The notes under the pieces: model-generated
Seen by the model: the letters and a program-made list of their open reading frames with translations, nothing else
What the model was told of the DNA's origin: nothing
The model's database searches: none
NCBI RefSeq assembly: GCF_002162315.1
Contig: NZ_CP021416.1
Span: forward strand, 1,376,207-1,440,206
DNA from: Sulfurospirillum diekertiae
Lineage (GTDB): Bacteria > Campylobacterota > Campylobacteria > Campylobacterales > Sulfurospirillaceae
DNA: 64,000 nt
Direction of reading: 5' to 3'
Part shown: in pieces, positions 23,788 through 49,000 of the stretch
Layout of the letters: each line of letters opens with the position of its first letter
How positions within the stretch are numbered: position 1 is the stretch's first letter
Program-made: the position numbers and the translations under genes

Positions 23788-24379
23788 GTGAATAAAAAAA
23801 TTCGAAAAAGTGAAAAAAATTTTGGATGCAGCATTACTGCTCTTTTCAACACGAGGTTTTTACGCCACAACGATTCCCGATATTGCAAAAGCTATGGGAA
23901 TGAGTGTTGGAAATCTCTACAATTATTTTTCTTCCAAAGAGGTTCTTGCTAAAGAAATCATTAAATACTCTTCCGATATTTTAGGTTCTGCTATACGTAC
24001 TGTCAACGAAGAAGCGGGGAGTGCAAAAGAAAAAATACGCAAAATTGTTGCGATTTATTTTGAAATGGCAACCTCGAAACCACAGCATATTAATTACTTT
24101 CTACGCGTTTATCTTGCCAATAAAGAGGTTTTTAAAGATGGTTGCGAAGGGATGCTTTGTGTCTCTTCTTTTGTCACAGAACTGATGATTTTTTTTGAAG
24201 AGGGTGTTGCTTCTGGTGAGCTTCGTAACCAAGATTTTTTTTCTGCATTTGGACTGTTTATGGGGTATCTTGGTGGTTTTGTTTTTCTTAATGGTGAAGG
24301 CGTATTGGAAAAAGATCTTAATTATTACGTCGATGATATTTCCCTTAACATTTATAATGCACTTAAAAATAGCCAATGA
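23788..24379 (+). CDS. TetR family transcriptional regulator, coupled to hupS (5' frameshift likely)
   Basis: About 195 residues. The N-terminal helix-turn-helix reads TTIPDIAKAMGMSVGNLYNYF, followed by SSKEVLAKEI; the C-terminal ligand and dimer domain is all-helical. A GTG at 23810 would open the intact frame but lacks a ribosome binding site. A GTG at 23788 has GAAGGA eight bases upstream and encodes MNKKIRKSEK, in another frame. Removing one A from one of the A-runs at 23794-23819 fuses the two. The last codons overlap the hupS ATG (ATGA), so the regulator and the HupSL hydrogenase are translationally coupled, pointing to a shared H2- or redox-related role. Ligand unknown. Confidence 0.82.
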
Positions 24380-25266
24380 AACACAAATCAACCATTGTTT
24401 GGCTTCAAGGTCTTACATGTAATGGCAACAGTCACTCTTTTTTGAATTACCCTCAGATGCCAAGTTTTGCCTCTTCATTTGAGATGATCTATCATCCTTT
24501 AATCTGTGGTGGACAGAGTTTTAAGACATTATTAGAGAGTCATGAGAAATTTGATTTTTTGATTTTAGAAGGGGCATTAAGCCATGATGAGCGTTTGCTT
24601 CAACGTTTTGGCATCCCTTTTTATGACATTCTTGATAATTTTGCGAGAAGAGCAAAACATATTATTTGTGCAGGTAGCTGTGCAAGCTTTGGTGGCATTT
24701 TCAGGCTTCGCGATCCTGAAAAAATTACGGGAGCTTTGTTTAGTGGTAAAGAGAAGGGTGGTTATTGGTTAGAAAAGAGCAATGTTGTTAATATCCCAGG
24801 TTGTCCATTGCATCCAAGATGGCTTGTTGAAACACTGTTCGCGTTACGAGATAGAGGCACACTCTTTTTAGATGAATTTTTGCGTCCAAAAGAGGTCTTT
24901 GCGTATCTTGCACATCATGGTTGTTTACGCAATGAGTATTTTGAATGGAAAGTGGATAGCAAACAGTTAGGCGAAAAAGAGGGGTGTTTGTTTTACGAAC
25001 ATGGTTGCCAAGGGCCTATGACTCATGCTAATTGCAATAAAATTCTTTGGAATGGTATTAGTTCCAAAACGAGAGCGGGTTCACCTTGCCTTGGATGTAC
25101 AGAATTTGACTTTCCTCGTCGCGCTCTGTTTGAAACACATAAAAATATGTCATTACCTCAAACACCTTTTGGTATCAGTAAACGTGCTTATTATACAGTT
25201 GCAGGTGTTGCTAAAAGTTTTAAAATAGACAGACTTGAAAAGAAGCTGATAGATGAAAATAACTAA
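24376..25266 (+). CDS. hupS: [NiFe]-hydrogenase small subunit, cytoplasmic HupS-type (group 2-like)
   Basis: A 296-residue iron-sulfur subunit without a Tat signal, so cytoplasmic. The proximal-cluster region is WLQGLTCNGNSHSF, in which the usual C-x-G-C has Asn for the second Cys, as I recall from cyanobacterial HupS. Other cluster ligands lie in AGSCASFGG, NIPGCPLHP, the HGCLRNEYFEW segment, EHGCQGPMTHANCN and SPCLGCTEFDFP. It relays electrons from the large subunit; the acceptor is unknown. It is preceded by a coupled TetR gene and overlaps hupL by 14 bases. The codon for the first cluster Cys lies inside a TTACATGTAA copy at 24413. Confidence 0.88.
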   Translation: MKHKSTIVWLQGLTCNGNSHSFLNYPQMPSFASSFEMIYHPLICGGQSFKTLLESHEKFDFLILEGALSHDERLLQRFGIPFYDILDNFARRAKHIICAGSCASFGGIFRLRDPEKITGALFSGKEKGGYWLEKSNVVNIPGCPLHPRWLVETLFALRDRGTLFLDEFLRPKEVFAYLAHHGCLRNEYFEWKVDSKQLGEKEGCLFYEHGCQGPMTHANCNKILWNGISSKTRAGSPCLGCTEFDFPRRALFETHKNMSLPQTPFGISKRAYYTVAGVAKSFKIDRLEKKLIDENN

Positions 25267-26596
25267 AGAGATTATCGAACGAATAGAGGGTGAAGCTACC
25301 TTAGAGCTTGAGTGGGACAACGAACAGGTCACCTTTGCCAAAATCAAATTTTTTAATTACCGTGGAATTGAAGAGATTTTGAAAAAGCGCCCTTTGCTCG
25401 ATGCATTAGCTTTAACGCCACGTGTATGCGGTATCTGTTCACATTCTCATGCTATCGCTTCAGTATTAGCGATTGAATCTATTTTTGAAAATCAAGGTGA
25501 ATCTTTACATGTAAGCCAAAAAGCCAAAGATATTCGTGAAATCGCACTGAACGCTGAGAAGATTCACAATCATATCAAATGGTATTTTTTCTCTATTTTG
25601 CCTGAACTCAAAAAGATTGCTGATTCAACGTATGAAGGGAATGCTTTTAAAGAGAAGCAGTGGTTTCAAGCGCAAAGTGCCATTATGGAAAGCCTAAAAA
25701 TGGGCGCTCATTTTACAGGTCAATGGCCTCATGGCTCTTTTGTAATGGCAGGCGGTGTGACGTGTGATCCACTCCAAAGTGATGTTGTAAGCGCAATTGG
25801 TTGTTTAGATTCTGTGATTTCATTTTGTGAAGAGCATTTTTATGGCATGCCTTTAGAAGAATTTTTGAGTTTTGATTCGGCTCTCCAAGTCATGTCAGTA
25901 CCTTCTGCACTCTCTTATGGCATTGATGAGATGCTCAAACTAGGATTTGATCGTTTAGGTAGAAGTTATGACCGCTTTTTAGCACTGGGAAAATCTTACC
26001 TATACGAAGGAAGCCTTAAAGCTTCCAAAACAGTTGTTCTAGGGGCAGATGTCAAATATGTACAGGAGAGTTTAGAACACACCTTCTTTGAAGATAAGCA
26101 CAAGGGGTATACTTATTCAAAAAGTGCTCAGTACAAAAAAAGCTATTGTGAAGTAGGGCCATTGGCACGTATGATGGTGGCAAAAGAGCCCTTGATGCGT
26201 GATTTTCATAGACGCTTTAAAGATGCAGCGCTCACACGCGTAGTAGCTCGTGCAGTAGAATGTGCCCATTTATTATCGCGTACCACGCAACTTCTCTCTA
26301 AGCTTAATCTAAATGAGCCCTCTTTTTATCCTCCCAAAAAAGATATTCACAGCATAAGTGGAGAGGGTGTAGGTATTGTTGAAGCACCAAGAGGAACGCT
26401 CATTCATCAGGTGAATGTTCGCAATGGAATCATTGAGTTATACAATATTATTACTCCTACTGTTTGGAATCTTGGAAATGGTAATCGTGAAAATCCTTCC
26501 ACCGCACAAAAGGCAATTATTGGTCTAAATTCATTTACCAAAGCCGATTTTATTCTGAAAAGTTTTGATGTATGCTCCGTCTGTACGACCCAATAA
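25253..26596 (+). CDS. hupL: [NiFe]-hydrogenase large subunit, cytoplasmic HupL-type with atypical C-terminus
   Basis: A 447-residue catalytic subunit. The N-terminal L1 motif, PRVCGICSHSHAIAS, supplies two of the four Ni-Fe cysteines. The C-terminal L2 motif is DVCSVCTTQ followed directly by stop. The two cysteines are kept, but the Pro of D-P-C and the closing His or Arg are missing, and there is no cleavable extension. Maturation without an endopeptidase is therefore predicted, as in H2-sensing hydrogenases. The gene overlaps hupS and ends the tetR-hupS-hupL operon. An energy-conserving or sensory function cannot be separated by sequence alone. A TTACATGTAA copy at 25505 encodes Leu-His-Val. 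Confidence 0.88.
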   Translation: MKITKEIIERIEGEATLELEWDNEQVTFAKIKFFNYRGIEEILKKRPLLDALALTPRVCGICSHSHAIASVLAIESIFENQGESLHVSQKAKDIREIALNAEKIHNHIKWYFFSILPELKKIADSTYEGNAFKEKQWFQAQSAIMESLKMGAHFTGQWPHGSFVMAGGVTCDPLQSDVVSAIGCLDSVISFCEEHFYGMPLEEFLSFDSALQVMSVPSALSYGIDEMLKLGFDRLGRSYDRFLALGKSYLYEGSLKASKTVVLGADVKYVQESLEHTFFEDKHKGYTYSKSAQYKKSYCEVGPLARMMVAKEPLMRDFHRRFKDAALTRVVARAVECAHLLSRTTQLLSKLNLNEPSFYPPKKDIHSISGEGVGIVEAPRGTLIHQVNVRNGIIELYNIITPTVWNLGNGNRENPSTAQKAIIGLNSFTKADFILKSFDVCSVCTTQ

Positions 26597-26838
26597 TCAG
26601 GTCATTATTGGTGTGACAATTTAGCCATTTTTAATATAATACACTTTTTATCTTCTTTCTTTGTTACATTTTTACTCTATTACTTTAAATTGCACTTAAT
26701 ATTGTCTGTTTTCTGCTTATTGTGAAATGTTTTTTGATTTAATTCTAAGTGAATAGTCATTCAGGTAAATAACTATTGTCTATTTACTGAATAATGCCTT
26801 AACTTTTTGATCTTGGAAAATTTACACAGGAGAGATTT
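26597..26838 (+). promoter_or_regulatory. Regulatory region upstream of hydA, with an imperfect dyad
   Basis: This 242-base gap, the longest non-coding stretch in the window, is very AT-rich and contains no gene. An imperfect inverted repeat, ATTCAGGTAAATA (26759-26771) and TATTTACTGAAT (26781-26792), pairs over 12 bases with one bulged G around a nine-base spacer. It lies 47-80 bases before the hydA ATG, near the expected promoter. A regulator such as NikR or a global H2/redox factor is possible, but I cannot match it to a known consensus. AGGAGAG is the hydA ribosome binding site. Confidence 0.45.
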
Positions 26839-27996
26839 ATGGAACACGCTAAACTGTACGAAAGGCTTGCTGAGCGACTTAGCAATCTTGAGAAGTTCCC
26901 CCGTATTAAGGAGGACAAATCTATTGCGGCACTAATGGAAGAACATGGAATTAGCCGTAGAGATTTTATGAAGTGGGCAGCAGGTGTCACTGCAATGTTG
27001 TCTTTACCTTCAGAATTTACACCACTTATGGCGCAAGCTGCTGAATTAACAGATCGTTTGCCTGTTATTTGGTTGCATATGGCAGAATGTACGGGCTGTA
27101 GTGAGAGTTTGCTTCGAACAGACGCTCCAACAATCGATAGTTTGATTTTTGATCATATCTCATTAGAGTATCATGAAACTTTGATGGTTGCTTGTGGTTG
27201 GCAGGCTGAGCACAATTTAGAGAGTGCTATTGAAAAATATAAAGGTAAATACATTTTAATGGTTGAAGGTGGTATTCCTGCAGGAAGCAGTGAATTCTTC
27301 TTAACCGTTGGACCGCATGGCCAAACAGGTCAAAAAAGTGCACAAAAAGCAGCAGATTCTGCAGCAGCTATTTTTGCTATTGGCTCTTGTTCAAGTTTTG
27401 GTGGTATTCAAGCGGCTCATCCAAATCCTACCAATGCACAACCACTTAGTAAAGTAACCAATAAACCTGTTATTAATGTTCCAGGCTGTCCTCCAAGTGA
27501 GAAAAATATTGTCGGTAACGTACTTCACTATATTCTTTTTGGCACACTTCCAGCACTTGATGCATACAATCGTCCAAAATGGGCTTATGGTTTTAGAATT
27601 CATGACCTTTGCGAAAGACGTGGTCACTTTGACGCGGGCGAGTTCGTACAAGAATTTGGCGATGCTGGTGCAAAAAAAGGTTTCTGTCTTTATAAAGTAG
27701 GTTGTAAAGGTCCTTATACTTTTAATAACTGTTCACGTGAGAGATTTAACCAACATACTTCTTGGCCAGTTCAAGCAGGTCACGGCTGTATTGGCTGTTC
27801 AGAACCAGGTTTCTGGGACAATATGGGACCATTTGAAGAGCCATTAGGTGATAGACTTTATAAAACAGTTTATGGCGATGGTGCTGATAAAACTGCTGAT
27901 AAAGTTGGTGTTGCGCTTCTCACTGCAACTGCGGTAGGTATTGCGGCTCATGCGGCAATTGCTGCGGTTAAGGGCAGTGGAAAAACTGAAGAATAA
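26839..27996 (+). CDS. hydA: Membrane-bound [NiFe]-hydrogenase small subunit (Tat-exported)
   Basis: A 385-residue precursor. The twin-arginine motif SRRDFMKWAAG is at about residues 39-49 after a long helical n-region, followed by a hydrophobic stretch ending MAQAAEL. Cluster ligands lie in AECTGCSESLLR (proximal), GSCSSFGG, NVPGCPPSE, HDLCERRGHFDAGEF and VGCKGPYTFNNC, and in GHGCIGCSEPGFWD. A C-terminal helix (VALLTATAVGIAAHAAIAAV) anchors it in the membrane on the periplasmic side. It passes electrons from HydB to the cytochrome b HydC. This is the group 1 respiratory uptake hydrogenase known from Wolinella, Helicobacter and Campylobacter. Confidence 0.96.
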   Translation: MEHAKLYERLAERLSNLEKFPRIKEDKSIAALMEEHGISRRDFMKWAAGVTAMLSLPSEFTPLMAQAAELTDRLPVIWLHMAECTGCSESLLRTDAPTIDSLIFDHISLEYHETLMVACGWQAEHNLESAIEKYKGKYILMVEGGIPAGSSEFFLTVGPHGQTGQKSAQKAADSAAAIFAIGSCSSFGGIQAAHPNPTNAQPLSKVTNKPVINVPGCPPSEKNIVGNVLHYILFGTLPALDAYNRPKWAYGFRIHDLCERRGHFDAGEFVQEFGDAGAKKGFCLYKVGCKGPYTFNNCSRERFNQHTSWPVQAGHGCIGCSEPGFWDNMGPFEEPLGDRLYKTVYGDGADKTADKVGVALLTATAVGIAAHAAIAAVKGSGKTEE

Positions 27997-28011: not shown

Positions 28012-29760
28012 ATGAGTAAAAGAATCGTAGTAGATCCAATCACCAGAATTGAAGGACACTTAAGAGTTGAAGTTATTGTAGATGATAACAACGTTGTTAC
28101 AGAAGCATACTCTTCTTCAACACTTTGGAGAGGTATTGAAACTATCCTTAAAGGCAGAGATCCAAGAGATGCTGGTTTTATGGTACAAAGAATTTGTGGT
28201 GTTTGTACATACTCTCACTATAAAGCAGGTATTATGGCAGTTGAGAATGCTCTAGGAATTGAGCCTCCTCTTAATGCAAAACTAACACGTACATTGATGA
28301 ACAATGCACTTTTCTTGCATGATCACGTTGTACACTTCTATCATCTTCATGGACTTGATTGGGTTGATGTTGTTTCAGCGCTTAAAGCAGATCCACGTAA
28401 AGCTGCGGAAGAGGCATTTAAATACACAGACTCTCCTGTTGCATGCGGTGCAGACATCCTTATGGCAACTCAAAAAAGAGTAGCGGAATTTGTTAAAAAA
28501 GGAAATCTTGGACCATTCGCTAATGCGTATTGGGGACATGCAACCTACAAATTAACACCAGAGCAAAACTTAATTGCTGTTTCTCACTACCTTAAAGCAC
28601 TTGAACTTCAAAGAACTGCTGCACAAATGATGGCTATCTTTGGTGCAAAACAACCACATCCACAAAGCTTAACCGTTGGTGGTGTAACGTGTGTTATGGA
28701 TCTTCAAGACCCAGCTCGTTTGGGTGAATATATGACGAAATTTAAAGAGATGGCAGACTTTGTAAATCATGCTTACTATCCTGATGTTGTTATGGCTGGA
28801 CTTGCTTATTCAAAAGAGCCAAGTGTCACAGGTGGTTTGGGTGTTGCAAATCTCTTTACTGAAAAAGAGTTCCAAATTAATGCCAAAGACTTCTTGTTTG
28901 AGAGTGGTGTTATGATGGGTGAAGATGTGGTTAATTTAATCACTGGCAAACCATTTAAAGTTCAAACATTGGATGAGAGTAAAATCACTGAAGAAGCAAC
29001 ACGTTCTTGGTATAAAGATAACGCTGCATATCATCCATACGAGGGTCGTCAAGAGCCTAATTATACTGGCTTTAAAGATGCACAAACTGTTAATGATAAA
29101 GGTGAGCTTGCTGCAACTAAAGTTATTGATGAAAATGGTAAATATACATGGGTTAAAGCTCCTCGTTATGATGGTAAACCACTTCAAGTTGGACCATTGG
29201 CAAATATCGTTATTAACTATGCGCTTGGTAACAAACGCGTTAAAGTCGTCGTTGATAAATTCTTGAAAGATACAGGACTTCCTATTACTGCTGTAGCTTC
29301 AACACTCGGTCGAACAGCATGTCGTATGATTGAAGCCAAAGTTGTAGCTGATAACGGTATGGAAGCATTTACTTCATTGATTAATAATCTTAAAGTTGAT
29401 GATGCTACCTGTGCAAGCTATAAAATCGACAAAAATAAAGAGTACAAAGGTCGCTATATTGGACATGTTCCTCGTGGTGTTCTTAGTCACTGGGTTAAAA
29501 TCAAAAATGGCGTGATTGAAAACTACCAAGCAGTTGTTCCAACAACTTGGAATGCAAGTCCAAAAGACGCTAAAGGTGTTAGAGGATCTTATGAAGAGTC
29601 TTTAATTGGTTTAAAGATCACTGATCTTTCTCAACCGCTTGAAATTGTAAGAATCATCCACTCTTATGATCCATGTCTTGCATGTGCTGTACATGTAATG
29701 GATACAAAAGGGAATGAGATGAGCAGTTATAAGGTCAATGTTAACGGCGCGTCTTGCTAA
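28012..29760 (+). CDS. hydB: Membrane-bound [NiFe]-hydrogenase large subunit
   Basis: A 582-residue catalytic subunit with N-terminal RITRIEGHLRVEV-type signature (here DPITRIEGHLRVEV), L1 motif RICGVCTYSHYKAG and L2 motif DPCLACAVH. After the histidine, a 21-residue tail ending NGASC is present, to be removed by HydD once nickel is inserted. It oxidises H2 in the periplasm, carried out through the Tat system with HydA. It starts 15 bases after hydA, with AGAAGGA as ribosome binding site. A near-match of the iterated palindrome (GTACATGTAA) covers the codons of the cleavage-site His. Confidence 0.97.
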   Translation: MSKRIVVDPITRIEGHLRVEVIVDDNNVVTEAYSSSTLWRGIETILKGRDPRDAGFMVQRICGVCTYSHYKAGIMAVENALGIEPPLNAKLTRTLMNNALFLHDHVVHFYHLHGLDWVDVVSALKADPRKAAEEAFKYTDSPVACGADILMATQKRVAEFVKKGNLGPFANAYWGHATYKLTPEQNLIAVSHYLKALELQRTAAQMMAIFGAKQPHPQSLTVGGVTCVMDLQDPARLGEYMTKFKEMADFVNHAYYPDVVMAGLAYSKEPSVTGGLGVANLFTEKEFQINAKDFLFESGVMMGEDVVNLITGKPFKVQTLDESKITEEATRSWYKDNAAYHPYEGRQEPNYTGFKDAQTVNDKGELAATKVIDENGKYTWVKAPRYDGKPLQVGPLANIVINYALGNKRVKVVVDKFLKDTGLPITAVASTLGRTACRMIEAKVVADNGMEAFTSLINNLKVDDATCASYKIDKNKEYKGRYIGHVPRGVLSHWVKIKNGVIENYQAVVPTTWNASPKDAKGVRGSYEESLIGLKITDLSQPLEIVRIIHSYDPCLACAVHVMDTKGNEMSSYKVNVNGASC

Positions 29761-29780
29761 AAGCGAAAGGGAGTCTAACA

Positions 29781-30458
29781 ATGAAAAGAAATGTAGAATT
29801 TGAGTTCTCAGCAGGGCTTCGTTGGACGCACTGGCTAAGGGCAATTGCTATTTTTGTATTAACGGTGACAGGGTTTTATTTGGCCTATGTATTCATCGCT
29901 CCTGAATCATCAGATGAGCCTATCCTCTTCTTGAATGCAAAGTTCAGAATGTGGCATGAAATTGCAGGGTTTTTATTGATTGCAATTACACTTTACAAAA
30001 CGTACCTTTTTTGCCTTGATGGTATTAGTTCAAAAGAGAGAGTATCGTTTGTAGATTTCATCAGTCCGAAGATATGGTTTCAACAGCTTAAATATTACCT
30101 TTTTATGGGAGAACATCCTCATTTAAAAGGTGTCTATAATCCGTTGCAATTTATCGCTTATGTGGGACTTTATGCAATGATTTTTATCATCAGCTTAACA
30201 GGTCTCATTTTGTATGTCAATTGTTATCAAGGTGGCGGTATTGGTCTCTTCTTATATGACTATATGCGTCCAATCGAAGCAATGATGGGTGGACTCGCAA
30301 TGGTTAGAGAAATTCACCACATTGTTATGTGGGGTATTTTGATCTTCTTACCAATTCATATCTATATGGCAATCTTTAACTCAATCATGGGTAAAGAGGG
30401 CTCTTTGGATGCGATTTTCAGTGGTTATAAGTTTCTTAAACACGATCCAAAACACTAA
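29781..30458 (+). CDS. hydC: Hydrogenase cytochrome b subunit
   Basis: A 225-residue di-heme membrane protein with four main hydrophobic helices. Candidate heme ligands are the His residues in LRWTHWLRA, MWHEIAGF and EIHHIVMWGILIFLPIHIYM. It transfers electrons from HydA to menaquinone and, in Wolinella, contributes to membrane potential generation. The ATG at 29781 (MKRNVEFEF) has AAGGGAG seven bases upstream; an earlier in-frame codon at 29754 lies inside hydB and is rejected. Confidence 0.95.
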   Translation: MKRNVEFEFSAGLRWTHWLRAIAIFVLTVTGFYLAYVFIAPESSDEPILFLNAKFRMWHEIAGFLLIAITLYKTYLFCLDGISSKERVSFVDFISPKIWFQQLKYYLFMGEHPHLKGVYNPLQFIAYVGLYAMIFIISLTGLILYVNCYQGGGIGLFLYDYMRPIEAMMGGLAMVREIHHIVMWGILIFLPIHIYMAIFNSIMGKEGSLDAIFSGYKFLKHDPKH

Positions 30459-30470
30459 GAGAGTTTTTAC

Positions 30471-31010
30471 TTGAAAGTGTTGATTTTAGGCATTGGCAAT
30501 GTGATGTTCTCCGACGAAGGCGTCGGAGTTCATCTTTGCCGTCTTGTTGAACAAAAATATGCGTTTTCTTCTCCCGAACATACCCTTACCTTTATTGATG
30601 GTGGTACACTAGCGGAGCGTTTAATTCCCATTATTGCTGAGTATGACTATGTCATTGTATTAGATTGTGTTGATACAAGAGATGGAGAAATTGGAGATGT
30701 TTATTTCTTCGATTTTGAAAATGTTCCTAATACAATCACATGGCAAGGGAGTGTTCATGAAGTCGAGATGCTTCAAACACTTAATATGATGGATATGGTA
30801 GGAGATCGTCCTCCTACAAAAATTATTGGTATAATTCCAGAAGTTATAGAAGATACAACGTTACAACTTACAGATGCTGTCGTCAAAGGCAGTGGTATTA
30901 TGGAAAATGTTTTACTAAAACATTTGAGTGAACTTGGATTTACATATCAGCAAATCAGTGATATTGACATCCAAAGTGTGGCAAATACGTCCTGTTTGGG
31001 GGATCGATGA
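30471..31010 (+). CDS. hydD: Hydrogenase maturation endopeptidase
   Basis: A 179-residue HyaD/HybD-type protease. It starts with VLILGIGNVMFSDEGVGVHL, which contains the first nickel-contacting acidic residue, has YVIVLDCVDT with the second acidic residue and GSVHEVEMLQTL with the conserved His. It removes the C-terminal peptide from HydB. The start is TTG at 30471; no better codon lies near the first strand. The stop overlaps the hydE start by four bases. Confidence 0.94.
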   Translation: MKVLILGIGNVMFSDEGVGVHLCRLVEQKYAFSSPEHTLTFIDGGTLAERLIPIIAEYDYVIVLDCVDTRDGEIGDVYFFDFENVPNTITWQGSVHEVEMLQTLNMMDMVGDRPPTKIIGIIPEVIEDTTLQLTDAVVKGSGIMENVLLKHLSELGFTYQQISDIDIQSVANTSCLGDR

Positions 31011-32680
31011 TTTTAGCATTTGAGTTTAATTATATATCACATAATGGTATTTTAGAAAATTTATTGAAAGACATTGCAAATGATTTTGGTATTGTACATA
31101 AAATTATACGTAAAGAATCGATTGTAACACTGTTTGTTGATGCCGATGAAGTTCGTTTAGGCGCTTTTGCAGACACTCTTTCTTCTTCGCTTCCATTGTC
31201 TATCTTTTTTAAGTCTTCCAGTGTTGAAGTTTTAGAAAGCATGTCTGAGGAAGAAGAAGTATTGCCATCAATGGCATATACCGTAGAATTTACACCTAAA
31301 ATTTTAGCTTCAGTGGATGCACCAAGTTCTCCTCAGTATCTTTCTCCTTTTGTTGTTGTACCAAAAGATGCGTCTATTCATCTTGTACATGAGGGGAAAA
31401 ATCTTTTACATGTAAACATGACAGAAGGCTATGAATCGCTTTATGAAAAAGTTTCTGAACTGATTGTTGCAGGTGAAAATATAGCCATCCAAACTAAAAA
31501 TGGCCATTTTGTTTTTGGCAAAATTGAAAACATCTCTGCATGTTCTCATGTTGTATTTCCTGAAGTGATTGCAACGGATTTATCGGTTGTTGAGCGTATG
31601 GTTGTCAGTAGAGAAAATGAGATCAAAGCGCTTGCCTCTTTAGAGCGCCCTTCAATTCGTTTTAAAGTAAATGCACTGTTCGCACAAAAAGAGATTTTTC
31701 AAGAAGCTCGCGTCATGTTAAGACTTGCAGATGATCTTTTCTTGTATCAACTCTCTAAACGACTCTTTGCAAAAGGGGTTCATTTCCTTTTTAAAGCTTC
31801 TCCTAAAGAGTGTCAAAGTCTGTACAGCGTTGATTATGAACAAACTTTGAAAGCGCTAGAGCCATTAGTGGTAAGTGTCCTTGAAAATGGGACTATTTTA
31901 ATTGTTCAAGGTAAAAGTTATGCTTCTGAGGCGCTCAAAGGAAGTTTGAAAAAATTTGATGAACCTTCCCATGCAGCATTGGCTTCTATTTTACAAGAGC
32001 ATAAGCTTTTTGATACAGCGTTGAGCTGTTTTTATTTTAGTCGAACTCATAATGATCGTGTCATGCACTACTCCAAAGAAAATGGCATGCTTAATCTTGT
32101 GGAAATTTTACTGCCAAGTTCATTTACTGAGCTTTTTGCAGAAATTGAGAGAAGTAGTCCTAGTGCTGAGCGTCTGGTTGCAAGTTATAAGGAACAGTTT
32201 CCTGAACTGTACGAAAAAGCGATTCATACAGTTATTCCAAACACATTACCAAAGAGTATTTATTCCCTTTGGAAAATTGTAGCAGTCGTACTAGGCATTA
32301 GCGATAATTTTGATCGCGCTGCTGAACAACTCATTGAAAATGCCGAAGATTTTGGTGGTCAAAAAGGTCCACGAATTGACTATTATTTGGAAAAAGAGGA
32401 TGCACTCAGTTCTGATTTGAATTATGTTAGATTGCTCCGCAGTGGTATGAGTTACAAACTCGCTGGAACGGACACAATAACATTGAGTTTTGGTTGTATG
32501 GAAAGTCTCTCTTTTTTCCTCTCCGATATGGCTGATTCTCACAAAGATAATCTTACTTCAAGTAAAATTGCTTTGTGTGGTTCACTGTTTGGCTATAAAC
32601 GTTTTACAGAGATGCTTTCAAAAAACATCAAGCCAAATCATACGATCTGTTTGAATAAAGAATTGCCGATTGATCAGTAA
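31007..32680 (+). CDS. hydE: Hydrogenase-associated protein HydE, a HypF-like paralogue without catalytic motifs
   Basis: A 557-residue cytoplasmic protein between hydD and hypF, in the position named hydE in Wolinella and Helicobacter; its biochemical role is not settled. I see similarity to the neighbouring HypF. LWKIVAVVLGISDNFDRAAE in HydE parallels LFDAVAVLCGMEGNVSYDGE in HypF, and the C-terminal SKIALCGSLFGYKRFTEML parallels YPIVLGGGVFQNRTLMEQI. The acylphosphatase loop and zinc-finger cysteines of HypF are missing. A scaffold or accessory role in HydAB maturation is inferred. A TTACATGTAA copy at 31406 encodes Leu-His-Val. Confidence 0.78.
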   Translation: MILAFEFNYISHNGILENLLKDIANDFGIVHKIIRKESIVTLFVDADEVRLGAFADTLSSSLPLSIFFKSSSVEVLESMSEEEEVLPSMAYTVEFTPKILASVDAPSSPQYLSPFVVVPKDASIHLVHEGKNLLHVNMTEGYESLYEKVSELIVAGENIAIQTKNGHFVFGKIENISACSHVVFPEVIATDLSVVERMVVSRENEIKALASLERPSIRFKVNALFAQKEIFQEARVMLRLADDLFLYQLSKRLFAKGVHFLFKASPKECQSLYSVDYEQTLKALEPLVVSVLENGTILIVQGKSYASEALKGSLKKFDEPSHAALASILQEHKLFDTALSCFYFSRTHNDRVMHYSKENGMLNLVEILLPSSFTELFAEIERSSPSAERLVASYKEQFPELYEKAIHTVIPNTLPKSIYSLWKIVAVVLGISDNFDRAAEQLIENAEDFGGQKGPRIDYYLEKEDALSSDLNYVRLLRSGMSYKLAGTDTITLSFGCMESLSFFLSDMADSHKDNLTSSKIALCGSLFGYKRFTEMLSKNIKPNHTICLNKELPIDQ

Positions 32681-34889
32681 ATTTCGTCTGATTTATCATA
32701 TAGAAGGTATTGTCCAAGGGGTTGGTTTTCGCCCCTTTGTCTATACACTTGCCTTACGCTTTCATTTAAAAGGTTTTGTGCTTAACAATTCTAAAGGTGT
32801 CATCATTGAGATAGAAGGATTTGAAGAGAGCCTTGATTCGTTTGAACAGGCTTTGTTTAAAGAACTTCCTCCACTTGCGCGCATTGATTTCTGGCAAAAA
32901 AATAGGCTTACATGTAAAAATGATACACGCTTCGAAATTCGACAAAGTGATGAAGCAAGTACAAAATCTTCTCTTGTATTACCAGATATGTCCATTTGTG
33001 ATGATTGTCTGAAAGAATTGTATGATCCAAACAACAGACGCTATCACTACTTTTTCATCAACTGTACACATTGTGGACCTCGCTATTCCATTATCAAAAC
33101 TGTTCCATATGATCGTCCATACACTTCAATGCAACCCTTTGTAATGTGTGAAGCGTGCCAAAGTGAATACACAAATCCTCTTGATCGCCGCTATCACGCG
33201 CAACCTATCAGCTGTCCAACATGCGGCCCAACACTCTCTTTGTGTTCCATTAATGGAGAACTATTGGCAACAAATGAAGCGGCGATTGTTAAATTAGCGG
33301 ATTTGATTAATGTTGGGCATATTGTAGCACTCAAAGGCATGGGAGGTTTTCATCTCATTTGTGATGCCACAAGCGACAGGGTGTTAGCGAGCTTGAGAGA
33401 GCGTAAACACAGACCTTCCAAACCGTTTGCTGTTATGTTTAAAACTATAGAAGCGATCAAAGAAGAGTGTATTTTAAGTGCTCAAGAAGAAGAGGGTATT
33501 TGCTCTCTGCTTCGCCCGATTGTTCTTGTAAAGCGCAATGTTAAGGCTTCTAAAATCAGTGGACTCATTGCCCCTCGCATCGATCGTCTTGGTGTTTTCT
33601 TACCTTATACACCTTTACATGTAATGCTTTTTGAGTACCTCAAAAACCCTATCGTGGCAACCAGTGCCAATCGCTCTGGTGAGCCCATTATTAGCGAAGC
33701 AACTGTTTTAAAACAAAAGCTTCATGACGTTGTGGAGTATTATCTGGATTATAACCGTGAAATAGTCAACTCCAGTGATGACAGTGTTTTACAATACCTT
33801 GGTGATAAAACGCTTTTGATGCGCTCTTCTCGTGGTATTGCTCCAAAGAGCTTTCGAGTTGATTCATCGGATGAGCGGAAAATCTTAGCCGTAGGCGCAC
33901 ATCAAAAAAATGCGATTGCTATCTATCTTAATCACCAAATTATTGTGAGTCCTTATATTGGTGATTTGGATAATATTGCCTCGAATGAACTATTTGAAAA
34001 GATGATAGAGCGTTTTTCACGATTTTATGATTTTACACCCGATCTGATCGTCGGCGATTTGCATCCAAATTATGTATCAACACAGTGGGCAAAAAGGCAA
34101 AATATTCCTTTTGTTCAGGTGCAGCATCACTATGCACATATTCTCTCTGCTATGTGTGAACATAAACTGAGCGGAAAAGTGTTAGGCATCGCATGGGATG
34201 GTACGGGGTATGGTGATGATGGTACGATTTGGGGTGGTGAGTTTTTAGTGTGTGATCCTAGTGGTTATGAACGTGTATGTTTTTTTGAACCTTTTCCTCT
34301 TTTGGGTGCAGATGCGAGCATTAAAGAGATTAAACGCATTTTAGCTTCGCTTCTGTGGGATGTATTGGGTGACGAGGCTGATGCATTGTTATTAGACTAT
34401 TTTGATGAAAAGGCACTCAAACGTCTCAAACAAATTTACACCAAAAAGATTAATTCACCCTTATGCTCATCAGTAGGAAGACTCTTTGATGCCGTTGCCG
34501 TTTTATGTGGAATGGAAGGAAATGTAAGTTATGACGGAGAAAGTGGCTTGCTTATTGAAGCTCTGTATGATCCTGCCATTACAGATCGCTATACATTTGA
34601 AATAGACGATAAAATGATTCGTTATAAACCTATGTTTGCTCAAATGCTTCACGATAAAGAACCACGTCTAATTGCTTCAAAATTTATCAATACATTGGTC
34701 GAAATGGCTCTTACCATAAGCCATCGTTACACTTATCCAATCGTTCTTGGAGGTGGAGTGTTTCAAAATCGCACACTCATGGAACAAATACTTCAAAATG
34801 TCACACAACCTCTCTATTTTCCGTTACAATTAGCAATCAATGATGGCGGAATTTGTGTTGGACAGATCTACAAATCACTTCAAAAGTAA
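32670..34889 (+). CDS. hypF: Carbamoyltransferase HypF
   Basis: A 739-residue protein. Domains in order are: acylphosphatase-like (GIVQGVGFRPFVY), two zinc fingers (CDDCLKELYDP with CTHCGPRYS; CEACQSEY with CPTCGPT), a YrdC-like domain (GHIVALKGMGGFHLICDAT, RKHRPSKPFAVMF), and a Kae1-like domain with the VQHHYAHILSAM metal site and GIAWDGTGYGDDGTIWGGE. It makes thiocarbamoyl groups on HypE from carbamoyl phosphate for cyanide ligand synthesis. The TTG start overlaps the hydE 3' end by 11 bases. TTACATGTAA copies at 32908 and 33615 encode Thr-Cys and Leu-His-Val. Confidence 0.97.
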   Translation: MISKFRLIYHIEGIVQGVGFRPFVYTLALRFHLKGFVLNNSKGVIIEIEGFEESLDSFEQALFKELPPLARIDFWQKNRLTCKNDTRFEIRQSDEASTKSSLVLPDMSICDDCLKELYDPNNRRYHYFFINCTHCGPRYSIIKTVPYDRPYTSMQPFVMCEACQSEYTNPLDRRYHAQPISCPTCGPTLSLCSINGELLATNEAAIVKLADLINVGHIVALKGMGGFHLICDATSDRVLASLRERKHRPSKPFAVMFKTIEAIKEECILSAQEEEGICSLLRPIVLVKRNVKASKISGLIAPRIDRLGVFLPYTPLHVMLFEYLKNPIVATSANRSGEPIISEATVLKQKLHDVVEYYLDYNREIVNSSDDSVLQYLGDKTLLMRSSRGIAPKSFRVDSSDERKILAVGAHQKNAIAIYLNHQIIVSPYIGDLDNIASNELFEKMIERFSRFYDFTPDLIVGDLHPNYVSTQWAKRQNIPFVQVQHHYAHILSAMCEHKLSGKVLGIAWDGTGYGDDGTIWGGEFLVCDPSGYERVCFFEPFPLLGADASIKEIKRILASLLWDVLGDEADALLLDYFDEKALKRLKQIYTKKINSPLCSSVGRLFDAVAVLCGMEGNVSYDGESGLLIEALYDPAITDRYTFEIDDKMIRYKPMFAQMLHDKEPRLIASKFINTLVEMALTISHRYTYPIVLGGGVFQNRTLMEQILQNVTQPLYFPLQLAINDGGICVGQIYKSLQK

Positions 34890-35380: not shown

Positions 35381-35398
35381 TCTTTACATGTAAAGATT
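35379..35398. terminator. 20-bp perfect palindrome at the nikR / transposase-like convergence
   Basis: AATCTTTACATGTAAAGATT is a perfect palindrome centred on a TTACATGTAA copy and followed by TTTTC on the plus strand. It overlaps the last base pairs of nikR and contains the stop codon of the convergent gene. With no unpaired loop, hairpin folding would open the central four bases. It may act as a bidirectional terminator built from the iterated motif. Confidence 0.5.
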
Positions 35399-36067
35399 TT
35401 TCTTCCATAGCGTCTCTAAAATGAGACGCTGTTCTTCTTGAGTATAATTAAATTTAAACTCCGCTTCTTTTAGATAATAGATAAAATTCTCTTTACTCAC
35501 ACCTTTAAAGTGATCCATCCAGCTCTCTAAAAATTTCCAAAAGCGTGTTAAGACGTTGTCAAAACTCTCGTAGTGCGCAACTTTATGCTGGTTAAGATAG
35601 CGTGCATAGGTCTCTTTTTCGATGGAATTTTCATCTAAATTTTTCAGGTGTGCAAATTGATCTGGGAGTAAGAGGGTGTGAATAGAGTCGCCGTACACCA
35701 TACTTAAAATACCGATAGCATCGAAAAGATATTTATTTTTTCCTCTTTTACATGTAGGAAGGTAATAGTATTCGTCATACTGTGAAAACGTCTGCGTTTG
35801 TTCTGCATAAAGAGCTTCACAGTGACTTATCAGTAAAAGACGTAGTTTTTGATATTTTTTTGCGATGGTAAGATAGTTCAATCCTAAAAGCGTAGCACAT
35901 TCATACGCACTGTTATTATCGATAAAACACTCCAAAATAGTCATCTCTTGTGCATACTTTACATAGCTAAATGTTCGTTTACATGTAACGCATCGGCATT
36001 GCGTATTAGAGACGAAATAAAGTGCTTTGTTCCCGCAAAAAATGCACTGCTTTTGATCTGTTTTCAT
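35384..36067 (-). CDS. IS1595 (ISXO2-like) transposase-derived protein inside the hydrogenase locus
   Basis: A 227-residue protein. The N-terminus has a zinc ribbon, CIFCGN and CRCVTCKRTF, then a helix-turn-helix (AYECATLLGLNYLTIAKKYQ). Next comes a DDE-type start, SQYDEYYYLPTCKRGKNKYL. The C-terminus has FWKFLESWMDHFKGVSKENF followed by YLKEAEFKFNY, which resembles the closing block of IS1595 transposases. The second catalytic Asp region is not recognisable, and no terminal inverted repeats or target duplications are visible around the gene. It looks like an immobile, possibly domesticated copy, convergent to nikR and divergent from hypB. A TTACATGTAA copy (35979) covers a zinc-ligand Cys codon. 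Confidence 0.72.
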   Translation of the reverse strand: MKTDQKQCIFCGNKALYFVSNTQCRCVTCKRTFSYVKYAQEMTILECFIDNNSAYECATLLGLNYLTIAKKYQKLRLLLISHCEALYAEQTQTFSQYDEYYYLPTCKRGKNKYLFDAIGILSMVYGDSIHTLLLPDQFAHLKNLDENSIEKETYARYLNQHKVAHYESFDNVLTRFWKFLESWMDHFKGVSKENFIYYLKEAEFKFNYTQEEQRLILETLWKKNLYM

Positions 36068-36169: not shown

Positions 36170-37021
36170 ATGTGTAAAGATTGCGGTTGTTCAATTACTC
36201 CTACTCAATGGTCAGCGGCACATGCGCACGAACACGATCATGATGGTCACACGCATAGTCATTCGCATGATCATGACGACCATACCCATCACGATCATCC
36301 TCATGCACATGATCATGATCACCATGAGCACAAAAATCATGATGAAATTCATGCCAATCCTCAATTAAATGACAAAAAAACCATTGCTGTCATTACGAAG
36401 ATTTTGGATGCGAACGACACACAAGCATCGCACAATAGAGCGCATTTTGAAGAGCATGGTGTTTTGGCGATCAATCTAATGAGCAGTCCCGGCAGTGGAA
36501 AAACAACACTTTTGGAAGCAACGATTGATACAAAAGAGATCAAACTAGCAGTTATAGAAGGCGATCTTGAGACCAATCAAGATGCCGATCGTATCACTGC
36601 AAAGGGGGCATTGGCTCATCAAATCACTACAGGTCAAGCGTGTCATTTGGATGCGTTTATGGTGCACGAAGGGCTTCATCATTTACCGATTGATGGGCTT
36701 GATGTTGTGTTTATCGAAAACGTGGGCAATTTGGTGTGTCCTGCTAGTTATGATGTTGGAAGTCACCTTAATGTCGTACTTCTTTCCGTTCCAGAAGGCG
36801 ATGATAAACCTGCCAAGTATCCTGTAATGTTCCGCAGCGCTGATCTGTTTTTAATTACGAAATGCGACCTGTTGCCATATTTTGATTTTAATGTTGAAAA
36901 AGCAATTCGTGAGGCTCGAAAGCTCAATCCAAAAGTCGATGTCATCGAGATAGACAGTAAGTCTGGTAAAGGGATTGATCAGTGGATCAATTACTTAAAA
37001 ATGAAAAAAGCATTGAGGTAA
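36170..37021 (+). CDS. hypB: Hydrogenase nickel incorporation GTPase HypB with His-rich N-terminus
   Basis: A 283-residue protein. It starts MCKDCGC, a motif that binds nickel with high affinity in other HypB proteins. Residues about 17-62 are a histidine-rich nickel-storage stretch with more than 20 His. The G domain has MSSPGSGKTTLLEATI (P-loop), VIEGDLETNQDADRI and FIENVGNLVCPASYDVG, with KCDLLPYFDF as the guanine-binding motif. It loads nickel into the hydrogenase large subunits together with HypA. It is first in hypBCDEA. Confidence 0.97.
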   Translation: MCKDCGCSITPTQWSAAHAHEHDHDGHTHSHSHDHDDHTHHDHPHAHDHDHHEHKNHDEIHANPQLNDKKTIAVITKILDANDTQASHNRAHFEEHGVLAINLMSSPGSGKTTLLEATIDTKEIKLAVIEGDLETNQDADRITAKGALAHQITTGQACHLDAFMVHEGLHHLPIDGLDVVFIENVGNLVCPASYDVGSHLNVVLLSVPEGDDKPAKYPVMFRSADLFLITKCDLLPYFDFNVEKAIREARKLNPKVDVIEIDSKSGKGIDQWINYLKMKKALR

Positions 37022-37023
37022 TC

Positions 37024-37293
37024 ATGTGTTTATCCATACCTTCTAAAGTCATCGAAATTGATGAAAATAATTATGCAACCGTCGATACCATGGGTGTTAA
37101 GCGTAAAGTCACGCTTGATTTGATTGCCGAAGAAGTGAACATTGGCGATTACGTGCTGATTCACGTGGGATTTGCGATGAATAAAATCAGCAAAGAACAT
37201 GCCGAAGATAGTATTGCGGCTTATAATGAGATCGCTGAAGCGATGCGTGATGGTGAGATCAGTGATGAAGAAGGAAACAGTAATTATGTTTGA
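37024..37293 (+). CDS. hypC: Hydrogenase assembly chaperone HypC
   Basis: An 89-residue chaperone starting MCLSIPSKV with the essential Cys2. It has a beta-barrel core (VKRKVTLDLIAEEVNIGDYVLIHVGFA). It binds HypD and the large subunit during delivery of Fe(CN)2CO. The ATG at 37024 lies two bases after the hypB stop; an earlier in-frame start would place Cys internally and is rejected. It overlaps hypD by eight bases. Confidence 0.95.
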   Translation: MCLSIPSKVIEIDENNYATVDTMGVKRKVTLDLIAEEVNIGDYVLIHVGFAMNKISKEHAEDSIAAYNEIAEAMRDGEISDEEGNSNYV

Positions 37294-38410
37294 AGTGGAT
37301 CTCATTGAAGGATTTCGCGACCCTGAACATATGAAGGCTTTGGCGGCACTCATTAAAAAAGAGTGCAAATCCAAAATCAATATTATGGAAGTGTGTGGCG
37401 GTCATACACATACGATTATGAAGTTTGGGCTTTCTCAAATTTTGCCTGATTTGATCGAATTTGTTCATGGCCCTGGATGTCCAGTGTGCATTATGCCTAA
37501 AGAGCGGATTGATCATGCCATAGCATTAGCAAGTATGCCCAATACCATTTTAGCCACGCTTGGCGATATGATACGCGTCCCAGGCAGTAAAACCTCTTTG
37601 CAAAAACTTCGCGCCGAGGGTAAAGATATACGTTCACTTTATTCGCCGTTGGATGTCATTAAAATTGCGCAGGAAAATCCTGATAAAAACGTGGTTTTTT
37701 TCGCCATTGGTTTTGAAACCACAACGCCGATGAGTGCGGTTTTGATGCAACAAGCCATCGCCCATAAACTGACCAATGTCTTTTTTCACATCAACCATGT
37801 CACCGTGCCTGAAGCCGTAGAGGCGATTATGGGAGATGGAAATGCCCTTATTGATGCGTTTCTTGGACCTTCGCATGTGAGTGTCATCACAGGGTATAAA
37901 ATCTATGAGCCGATCGCTGAAAAATACCACACGCCAATCGTGGTTGCAGGGTTTGAACCCACCGATGTGATGGAGTCGGTTTTGCGCATTGTGCGCCAAG
38001 TGAATGAGGGCAAAAGTGTTGTTGACAATGAATATGCCAGAGCCGTTTCACGCGAAGGCAATCTCAAAGCGCAAGAGCTTATCAATACCTATTTTGAAAA
38101 ACGTGATCACTTTAGATGGCGTGGTATTGGTGATATCCCCAAAAGTGCGTTGAAGCTTAAAGCAGAATATGCTGCTTTTGACGCTGAGATTGTGTTTGAT
38201 GCAGTGTTGCCTAAAACAGAACTTAATGACCATAAAATGTGCATTTGCGGTGAGATTCTCAAAGGTCGCGCCAAACCGTTTGACTGCAAAGTTTTTGGCA
38301 AAGCATGCACCCCAACCAATCCAATGGGTTCGTGTATGGTTTCGAGCGAAGGGGCGTGTTCGGCGTACTTTAAATATGGAAAATTGAACCTCAAAGGAGC
38401 AAGGGCGTGA
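37286..38410 (+). CDS. hypD: Hydrogenase formation protein HypD
   Basis: A 374-residue iron-sulfur scaffold. Motifs are EVCGGHTHTIMKFGL, VHGPGCPVCIMPK and AIGFETTTPMSAVL. The [4Fe-4S] cysteines lie in the C-terminal KMCICGEILKG, KVFGKACTP and MGSCMVSSEGACSAYFKY segments. It assembles the Fe(CN)2CO group with HypC and HypE. The start at 37286 (MFEVDLIEGFRDP) overlaps hypC, indicating translational coupling; longer in-frame readings upstream run through hypC and are rejected. Confidence 0.96.
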   Translation: MFEVDLIEGFRDPEHMKALAALIKKECKSKINIMEVCGGHTHTIMKFGLSQILPDLIEFVHGPGCPVCIMPKERIDHAIALASMPNTILATLGDMIRVPGSKTSLQKLRAEGKDIRSLYSPLDVIKIAQENPDKNVVFFAIGFETTTPMSAVLMQQAIAHKLTNVFFHINHVTVPEAVEAIMGDGNALIDAFLGPSHVSVITGYKIYEPIAEKYHTPIVVAGFEPTDVMESVLRIVRQVNEGKSVVDNEYARAVSREGNLKAQELINTYFEKRDHFRWRGIGDIPKSALKLKAEYAAFDAEIVFDAVLPKTELNDHKMCICGEILKGRAKPFDCKVFGKACTPTNPMGSCMVSSEGACSAYFKYGKLNLKGARA

Positions 38411-39411
38411 GTAAAAAGATACTTCTCTCTCACGGAGGTGGCGGTGAAGAGACCCAAAACCTTATTAAAGAGCTATTTTTTAAACATTTTGATAACGAAA
38501 TTTTATTGCGTATGGAAGATGCTGCAAGCCTTGTGATGAATGACCATAAAATTGCATTTACAACTGACTCTTTTGTTGTTTCACCGCTTTTTTTTAAGGG
38601 TGGAAATATTGGTAAGCTTGCGATTGCGGGAACGGTGAATGATCTTTCGATGATGGGGGCAAAGCCTCGTTATATGACCTGTTCTTTTATGATTGAAGAG
38701 GGGTTTTTATATTCTCACCTTGAAGAGATTGTTATCACGATGCGTGATGAGATGGCAAAAAGCGGTGTTAAAATTGTTGCTGGTGATACCAAAGTAGTAC
38801 CAAAAGGTGGGGTTGATGGACTTTTCATTAACACAGCTGGTATTGGTGAGATCATGTATGAAAATATTTCTGCTCATAACTTAGAAGAGGGTGATTGTAT
38901 CATCGTTTCTAATGAAATTGGCAATCACGGCGCCTGTATCTTAGCAACCCGCGAAGAGATAGAGCTGGAGAGTGATCTTCAAACCGATTGTGCAAGTTTA
39001 TGGAAACCTGTTGAAGCGCTTATTGATGCAGGTGTGAAGATTCATGCGCTCAGGGATGCGACGAGAGGAGGGCTCAGTGCGGTTTTGAATGAATGGGCTG
39101 AAACTTCAAAGGTGTGCATCGAAGTCGATGAGGCAAAAATTCCTGTGGCGCAAGAGGTCAAAGGTGTTTGTGAGCTTCTCGGTTTTGAACCGTATGAATT
39201 TGCCAATGAAGGAACCATGGTGATTTGTTTGCCTCAAAGTGAAGCAGTAAAAGCACTTGAGGTCCTCAAGAAGTTCCCTGAAACAGCAAAAAGTGCCATA
39301 ATAGGAAAGGTGAGCAACACCTTTACATGTAAAGTTGTTTTACATACGCCTTGGGGGTCAGAGCGCTTTTTAGAACCACCTAAAGGTGAGTTACTTCCGA
39401 GGATTTGCTAA
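38407..39411 (+). CDS. hypE: Carbamoyl dehydratase HypE
   Basis: A 334-residue PurM-like ATPase. It starts with LLSHGGGGEETQNLI, has TTDSFVVSPLFFKGGNIGKL and GDTKVVPKGGVDG, and ends with the invariant PRIC. Its terminal cysteine receives and dehydrates the carbamoyl group to thiocyanate. The GTG start overlaps the hypD stop by four bases, and the stop overlaps the hypA ATG. A TTACATGTAA copy at 39323 encodes Thr-Cys. Confidence 0.97.
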   Translation: MSKKILLSHGGGGEETQNLIKELFFKHFDNEILLRMEDAASLVMNDHKIAFTTDSFVVSPLFFKGGNIGKLAIAGTVNDLSMMGAKPRYMTCSFMIEEGFLYSHLEEIVITMRDEMAKSGVKIVAGDTKVVPKGGVDGLFINTAGIGEIMYENISAHNLEEGDCIIVSNEIGNHGACILATREEIELESDLQTDCASLWKPVEALIDAGVKIHALRDATRGGLSAVLNEWAETSKVCIEVDEAKIPVAQEVKGVCELLGFEPYEFANEGTMVICLPQSEAVKALEVLKKFPETAKSAIIGKVSNTFTCKVVLHTPWGSERFLEPPKGELLPRIC

Positions 39412-39752
39412 TGCATGAGTTTTCCATCGTTAACGCCCTTTTAGAGATGTGCGAAAAAAACGCAAAAGAGCATAATGCGACAAAAATCACTAAAGTTGAA
39501 ATTAAAATAGGAAAACTCAGTGGTGTTGAACCCTATTTATTGCAAACGGCATTTGATACCTTTAAAGAAGAGACCATTTGTGCTGAGGCAGAATTTATCG
39601 TTCATCTGCAAGAAATTGTCATTCATTGTGAAAATTGTCACAATGAAGTAACGCTCACACACAATGAATTTGTTTGCCCTACTTGTAGCAGCACTGATTT
39701 ACGCGTCATCGATGGAGAAGAGATGTACCTCATGCATCTTGAAATGGAGTAA
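39411..39752 (+). CDS. hypA: Hydrogenase nickel-insertion protein HypA
   Basis: A 113-residue protein. MHEFSIV carries the His2 nickel ligand, and the zinc site is CENC plus CPTC at about residues 73-93. With HypB it inserts nickel; in Helicobacter relatives it also serves urease. The ATG at 39411 is required because nickel binding needs His at position 2, so the in-frame codon at 39405 is not used. It ends the hypBCDEA unit. Confidence 0.96.
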   Translation: MHEFSIVNALLEMCEKNAKEHNATKITKVEIKIGKLSGVEPYLLQTAFDTFKEETICAEAEFIVHLQEIVIHCENCHNEVTLTHNEFVCPTCSSTDLRVIDGEEMYLMHLEME

Positions 39753-47829: not shown

Positions 47830-49000
47830 ATGAATATTCATGAGTATCAGGCAAAAGAGATCTTTAAGAGATACAATGTTCCCACACCCAACGGCTATGT
47901 CGCCTTTAACGTTGAAGAGGCTGTAGAAAACGCAAAGAAACTTGGTGGTTCTATTTGGGTGGTAAAAGCTCAAATTCACGCAGGTGGACGTGGTCTTGGT
48001 GGTGGTGTAAAACTCGCCCGAAGCCTGGATGAAGTGAAAACACTTGCAAATGAAATTCTTGGTATGACTTTGGTCACACATCAGACTGGACCTGCGGGCA
48101 AACTGGTTCAAAAAGTCTACATTGAAGAAGGTGCTGATATTGCTGATGAGCTTTATCTTGGAATTGTCTTGGATCGCGCTCGTGAAATGCCAGTGATTAT
48201 GGCATCACGCGAAGGTGGTATGGAGATTGAAAAAGTTGCAGCAGCAACTCCTGAAAAAATTATTAAAGTAGCCGTTGATCCATTTATCGGTTTTCAAGCC
48301 TTTCATGGCAGAGAACTTGCTTATGGTTTAGGACTTGCAAAAGAAGAGATCAGCAATTTTATTAAATTTGCAGCAGCACTCTACAAAGTGTATATGGAAA
48401 ATGATGCAGAGATGATCGAAATTAACCCTTTGGTTAAAACAAAAAGTGGTGCATTTATCGCATTGGATGGCAAGATGGGTTTTGATGATAACTCGCTCTT
48501 CCGACATCCTGACATTGAAGCAATGCGCGATCCAAGTGAAGAAAATCCCATAGAGCGTGAAGCTTCAGGGTATGGATTGAGCTACGTTAAACTCGATGGT
48601 AATGTTGGTTGTATGGTCAATGGTGCTGGTCTTGCGATGGGTACGATGGATACAATTAACTACGTGGGAGGCACTCCTGCAAACTTCCTCGACGTGGGCG
48701 GCGGAGCGAATGCTCAAACCGTTGCTAAAGGCTTTGAAATCATTCTTAAAGATCCAAACGTCAAATCAATCTTTGTCAATATCTTTGGTGGTATTGTACG
48801 CTGTGACCGTATTGCCAATGGTATCTTGGAAGCAACGAAACTGGTCGATGTTCACGTTCCTGTGATCGTTAGATTGGATGGTACAAATGCAAAAGAAGCC
48901 GCTGAAATTCTTAAAAAATGCCAACATCAAAAATATTATTACGGCAACTGATCTTAACGATGGCGCAATTAAAGCCGTTGCGTGTGCTAAAGGAAACTAA
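47830..49000 (+). CDS. sucC: Succinyl-CoA synthetase beta subunit, frameshifted near the 3' end
   Basis: The main frame gives an ATP-grasp protein with [18 protein letters not shown] at the start, [39 protein letters not shown] and the [10 protein letters not shown] and [15 protein letters not shown] blocks. The frame ends early at 48951. Reading the six A at 48913-48918 as five restores [20 protein letters not shown] and a stop at 49000, two bases before sucD. That gives 389 residues, the family length. It couples succinyl-CoA cleavage to NTP formation with SucD. Confidence 0.92.

Follow-up and report, generated by a model that had tools for sequence, protein, structure and literature searches.

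Regulatory hydrogenases of the HoxBC/HupUV type (group 2b) are cytoplasmic two-subunit hydrogenases in which the large subunit ends right after the last Cys motif, and their genes lie beside those of a transcription regulator and of the uptake hydrogenase that would be under their control. The tetR-hupSL locus discussed here shares all these properties and differs in its partner, a one-component TetR in place of the HoxJ/HupT kinase and HoxA/HupR. A second point of comparison is Huc (group 2a, 7UTD/7UUR), an enzyme with three [3Fe-4S] clusters that oxidises atmospheric H2 (PMC10017518). The third is given by TetR repressors such as FadR, RutR and KstR2, with which the regulator has in common the fold, the HTH and a palindromic operator, here a candidate one, over the promoter.

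By homology, the pair would belong with group 2d, which includes Aquifex Hase III and the HupSL of Campylobacterota; its homologue in S. multivorans is SMUL_1421-1422, and the placement is taken from the literature (PMC5357620, PMC5401914). The function of group 2d has been given as unresolved and possibly regulatory (PMC10052474), and ferredoxin reduction has been proposed for the group (PMC5401914) and suggested for the Aquifex and Sulfurimonas relatives (PMC5357620, PMC5401914). In S. denitrificans the transcript is present and soluble H2 uptake was undetected (PMC4149538), and HupSL is absent from Sulfurospirillum proteomes (PMC6242987). S. multivorans shows hupL transcript levels close to zero under every condition tested and constitutive transcription of hydB, which H2 does not raise (PMC5357620). 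HydABC is lower in fermenting, H2-producing S. cavolei (PMC6242987), and the Sulfurovum hydrogenase is induced by H2 (PMC7174374); no sensor is named, in the literature that we found, for the H2-responsive hydrogenase expression of some Campylobacterota. Kruse et al. (2017) suggested that the TetR is a local hupSL repressor in S. multivorans (PMC5357620). Searching the open-access literature, we found nothing on an operator, nor on TetR linkage past single mentions, and the group 2d papers found do not describe an order-wide TetR coupling, an operator or a regulon. The TetR neighbour and guesses at H2 sensing are therefore already known; the operator, the regulon and the order-wide coupling are new.

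The tetR-hupSL genes in Sulfurospirillum diekertiae

The window, that is, the whole stretch of DNA analysed, comprises 64,000 nt of S. diekertiae NZ_CP021416.1 (GCF_002162315.1; forward-strand positions 1,376,207-1,440,206). Genes tetR (23810-24379), hupS (24376-25266) and hupL (25253-26596) follow one another on the + strand just upstream of hydABC, with hupS and hupL overlapping by 14 nt. The putative target operon, also on the + strand, is formed by hydA (26839-27996), encoding the Tat-exported small subunit of a group 1 uptake hydrogenase, hydB (28012-29760), encoding the large subunit with a C-terminal extension, hydC (29754-30458), a cytochrome b subunit by position and sequence, and hydD (30471-31010), a hydrogenase maturation protease of the HycI family. 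Farther along the same strand lie hypF (32670-34889) and the maturation genes hypB-hypC-hypD-hypE-hypA (36170-39752).

The product of tetR matches Pfam TetR_N (PF00440; E 9e-17), and its predicted structure (AF2, pLDDT 90) has a fold that matches TetR proteins in the PDB, the closest solved structures being ordinary TetR proteins. What sets it apart from FadR, RutR and KstR2 is the co-encoded hydrogenase and an unusually conserved effector domain, this half of the protein being as conserved as the DNA-binding half. The effector domain contains a Cys-x4-Cys pair, Cys119 and Cys124 in the numbering of alignment A1, which is found in 83/84 TetR sequences (the remaining one is truncated) and lies in a loop that is predicted with low confidence. 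Inserts of 225 bp in tetR and hydA of one relative (L008) are scaffold N runs and not real.

An earlier note on this DNA had described the ATGA coupling of tetR to hupS, and this overlap is indeed seen. The same note had tetR begin at GTG 23788, which is wrong: that codon is out of frame, and an in-frame TGA lies at 23789-23791. A leftover of the conserved N-terminus (VnKKIRKSE) occupies 23788-23809 (+), out of frame with respect to the remaining tetR. Relatives with HupL 96% identical (L001, L010, L011) lack one A that is present here, and in them the GTG equivalent to 23788 starts an in-frame VDKKIRKSEKILDAAL. Due to the extra A, the open frame of the window begins only at GTG 23810, its sole common start codon. 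The gene thus presents a frameshift near codon 12, a restart at 23810, or a sequencing error; the extra A, located within 23788-23830, may itself have arisen by mutation, mark a slippage site or be an error of sequencing.

The cytoplasmic [NiFe]-hydrogenase pair reported in the earlier note is confirmed: HupS has no signal peptide, and hupL lies on the same strand. The large subunit has four Ni-Fe cysteines, C59 and C62 being retained in 83/83 relatives and C441 and C444 in 82/83, so that both CxxC motifs expected of a functional [NiFe] active site are in place. It finishes in ...DVCSVCTTQ, without a C-terminal extension, as had been noticed; such an extension was found in 0/83 relatives, 82 of which terminate at the C-terminal motif while the remaining one is truncated. 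In the small subunit, the proximal CxxC is replaced by C-N-G-N, with Asn at the position of the second Cys in 67/83 sequences, Asp in 8/83 and Cys in 7/83. The remaining cluster ligands are retained, and the SKTR motif is invariant across the aligned set. We dropped the reading of CNGN as a lost cluster ligand, and hence a lost enzyme function, because the catalytic Huc carries the identical change according to a PDB search.

In that search the small subunit of Huc was the nearest solved relative of HupS, sharing with it the Asn for the second proximal Cys and the SKTR medial motif. The known sensor HoxB differs, with CGGC and SCTR where HupS has CNGN (CNGN or CNGD in most of the 83) and SKTR. 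The likeness to Huc stops at the large subunit: that of Huc bears a C-terminal extension, and a gene for a maturation protease sits next to it. The plasmid loci examined showed no TetR partner for Huc. In the tree, HupL forms its own clade, apart from HoxC/HupV and from Huc, with support 99/100 and a long stem. Neither a PAS histidine kinase (HoxJ/HupT) nor a sigma-54 activator is found beside tetR-hupSL, the kinase check covering the listed ORFs from 14000 to 38000. In its anatomy and context HupSL thus resembles the regulatory hydrogenases, yet it falls outside group 2b. The missing extension, which the earlier note named as a regulatory trait, is confirmed, but the Fe-S ligands are Huc-like and unlike those of known sensors.

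Linkage of TetR and HupSL across the order

The linkage was surveyed in 299 Campylobacterales genomes, each at least 90% complete. The TetR orthologue occurs in 133/299 and HupL of this clade also in 133/299: 130 genomes have both, 163 neither, three only TetR (G033, G160, G165) and three only HupL (G101, G249, G305), for which Fisher p is ~4e-77 with relatedness between genomes ignored. The co-occurrence proposed earlier as a check is therefore borne out, with 130 genomes against 3 + 3 discordant ones. Contig ends interrupt the loci in G160, G101 and G249, and G305, from genus g4, is a draft of 91% completeness; in this genus tetR is placed elsewhere. In the g4 members G032, G036, G282 and G293, hypF comes immediately after tetR, and hupSL precedes hydA, following hypA where the contig extends enough. 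The remaining two, G033 and G165, have tetR near hydABCD without hupSL. No HupL of this clade was found without TetR in an intact, complete genome among the 299. The tetR-hupSL unit is also present on plasmids of Sulfurimonas paralvinellae and Sulfurovum mangrovi, and in the loci read the three genes overlap or nearly so. In 150 genomes drawn from the phylum, the TetR was seen solely within Campylobacterales.

Coevolution was assessed by comparing identity matrices for 48 genomes that carry all the genes. The correlation of TetR with HupS is 0.76 and with HupL 0.77, within a span of 0.76-0.82 inside the module, and that of TetR with HydA is 0.31; the partial correlation of TetR and HupL given HydA is still 0.74. 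Between distant genomes or families, identity amounts to 60% for TetR, 53% for HydA, 50% for HupS and 42% for HupL. These values indicate that TetR, HupS and HupL coevolve as a single unit while the type of the neighbouring HydAB changes.

TetR paralogues, 43-45% identical and devoid of the second Cys of the pair, were observed at four loci (L094, L095, L096, L097) that resemble, by sequence, clusters for formate dehydrogenase, tungstate or molybdate transport, or selD. Two of them have the palindrome TGAATGAATATTCA upstream of their own gene.

A candidate operator and its regulon

The hydA promoter region contains a palindrome of the form TGAATrATyATTCA at 26750-26763 (+), TGAATAGTCATTCA, which we regard as a candidate TetR operator. 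TGAATNRTNATTCA has one exact match in the whole genome to which the window belongs, at this position, 75 bp before the hydA start, and several relatives have a single match too, at hydA. When hydA upstream regions are aligned within the family, ATGAATAATCATTCA is kept together with TetR and decayed in the TetR-less loci L046-L048. The earlier note gave no coordinates for the dyad that it saw upstream of hydA. A long dyad, GTAAATA...TATTTAC at 26759-26792, which overlaps the conserved palindrome, was rejected as operator because it is unconserved beyond close relatives.

Occurrence was counted in the 220 bp upstream of hydA, allowing at most one mismatch, in 79 TetR+ and 50 TetR- loci. The 14-mer, which was derived from one family, is present in 60/79 TetR+ loci and in 1/50 TetR- loci. 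On adding the shorter 12-mer form ATGAATATTCAT, set only after inspecting families f9 and f16, the counts become 74/79 and 3/50. The association of operator with TetR presence has a Fisher p of 1e-25, relatedness again ignored, and shuffled sequences contain the motif in ~0.5-1.3% of cases. Loci sampled after the motif was fixed gave the 14-mer in 21/35 TetR+ and 0/20 TetR-. Operator sites are weak or diverged in family f16 and in parts of f9 and f10.

Boxes resembling a -10 element are concentrated at 12 and 8 bp before the palindrome, and in family f16 the palindrome falls between -35 and -10; both arrangements are as expected for a repressor, and the putative operator would thus overlap the promoter of its target. 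Upstream of tetR, the palindrome was found in 6/105 cases, all weak one-mismatch 12-mers. Exact sites in TetR+ genomes precede hypBCD (L198, L200, L201), hypA (L197), a cbiM-type nickel operon (L199) and, in L196 and L207, a nickel-transporter-like (NiCoT) gene with hypBCD behind it, so that in several other families the operator stands before the maturation genes. In the window these genes are downstream of hydABCD on the same strand, and one site could serve all of them. Genome G167 (L096) has a one-mismatch operator behind tetR-hupSL, before a three-gene operon (molybdopterin oxidoreductase, FeS and NrfD-like) that replaces hydA. The sites taken together appear to define a hydrogenase regulon, and the earlier note's choice of hydABC as the target gains strong support from the conserved candidate operator, whose presence at the hydA promoter goes with that of TetR.

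A few other matches were found. One pattern match lies behind hypF (L204). Three more (L202, L203, L205), in or near unrelated genes, were taken as chance, and an exact 12-mer at window position 47830 is the start of a coding sequence and was set aside. Locus L149 (G027) has a perfect operator at hydA in a genome with neither TetR nor HupSL, which suggests that the module was lost recently. Upstream of hydA, at about 26630-26700, a block AATAcACTTTTTATC...TTTGTTAC is conserved in TetR+ and TetR- Sulfurospirillum, and may be a second promoter independent of TetR.

Proposed mechanism and alternative explanations

Genome comparison supports the integrity of the module, the operator and the regulon. 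From these we infer that TetR is the palindrome-binding protein and that it acts as a repressor, with H2 as the signal and HupSL as the relay. In the model, tetR-hupSL would be a self-contained regulatory module, in which TetR would bind the 14-bp palindrome at the hydA promoter, blocking RNA polymerase, and in other families also sites before hyp and nickel-uptake operons, with its own operon not mainly under its control. HupSL would be a low-abundance cytoplasmic H2-sensing hydrogenase that, once reduced by H2, could signal this to TetR, either on contact or via the two invariant cysteines of the effector domain. Release of TetR would then allow the uptake hydrogenase and the maturation genes to be made when H2 is present.

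We hold it highly likely that TetR controls the hydrogenase regulon through the palindrome. As the sites are at hydA, hyp and nickel promoters and mostly not at tetR, TetR very probably represses this regulon rather than hupSL. That HupSL is the H2 input to TetR seems to us reasonably likely, and we give the explanation as a whole, repression of the regulon by TetR with HupSL relaying H2, a similarly favourable judgement; the pair is probably a hydrogen sensor of a new type. More tentatively, and with somewhat less than even confidence, we propose that HupSL binds TetR and, when reduced by H2, switches it via the Cys119/Cys124 loop, giving a one-component H2 sensor that controls H2 oxidation across Campylobacterales. 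Besides the coupling and the operator, the model has in its favour the H2 induction seen in Sulfurovum, the undetected soluble H2 uptake in S. denitrificans, the absence of HupSL from Sulfurospirillum proteomes, and a HupL that ends without extension like HoxC/HupV. Several observations speak against it: constitutive hydB in S. multivorans, the HydABC drop in S. cavolei, the isolated operator of G027, and HupS ligands like those of Huc, which is a working respiratory enzyme.

The alternative that survives best, unlikely as we consider it, is that TetR represses the regulon via the palindrome but senses a metabolite or the redox state itself, HupSL being a co-regulated or co-inherited anabolic enzyme that, for instance, reduces ferredoxin for the reverse TCA cycle. 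TetR and operator are kept without HupSL in G033 and G165, so TetR may have another input; these genomes and the HupSL-less paralogues, two of which are preceded by a similar palindrome, count against the H2-sensor model and in favour of this alternative, as do the catalytic nature of Huc and the ferredoxin reduction proposed for Aquifex and Sulfurimonas relatives (PMC5357620, PMC5401914). It is opposed by the absence of clade HupL without TetR from intact, complete genomes, by the lack of soluble activity in S. denitrificans, of HupSL in proteomes and of C-terminal processing, and by the palindrome being mostly missing before tetR-hupSL, so that hupSL would not be co-regulated with hydABC through it.

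It is very improbable that the palindrome serves another regulator (e.g., NikR or Fur) and matches TetR by inheritance. Palindrome and TetR are common to related genomes, and nikR is within the window; however, TetR- genomes with a well-conserved hydA lack the palindrome even in the same families, TetR+ genomes without HupSL retain it, and two TetR paralogues have a similar one upstream of themselves. Least credible of all is that TetR merely represses hupSL locally and is unrelated to hydABC, as put forward for S. multivorans by Kruse et al. (2017), since the adjacency and overlap of tetR-hupSL and the near-zero hupL transcripts throughout (PMC5357620) are outweighed by palindromes at hydA and hyp promoters with only 6/105 weak matches at tetR, and by a TetR that remains by hydABC or hypF where hupSL is missing or elsewhere.

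If the H2-sensor model is true, TetR-HupSL would give [NiFe]-hydrogenases a second, kinase-free route to gene control, in bacteria that are dominant at hydrothermal vents and redox boundaries. We think that the operator also offers a compact candidate part for gene circuits that respond to H2.

Other genes of the hydrogenase region

Between hydD and hypF, the window has a gene for 557 aa (31007-32680) with no Pfam match, whose relatives sit behind hydD in L085, L086 and L092. The - strand carries, at 35384-36067, a gene that begins like a zinc ribbon and matches an IS1595 transposase weakly, short of the Pfam cut-off. Genes of this type recur beside hyp or nickel-uptake genes in several families (L079, L080, L198, L200, L201, L207), possibly as a domesticated transposase serving as regulator.
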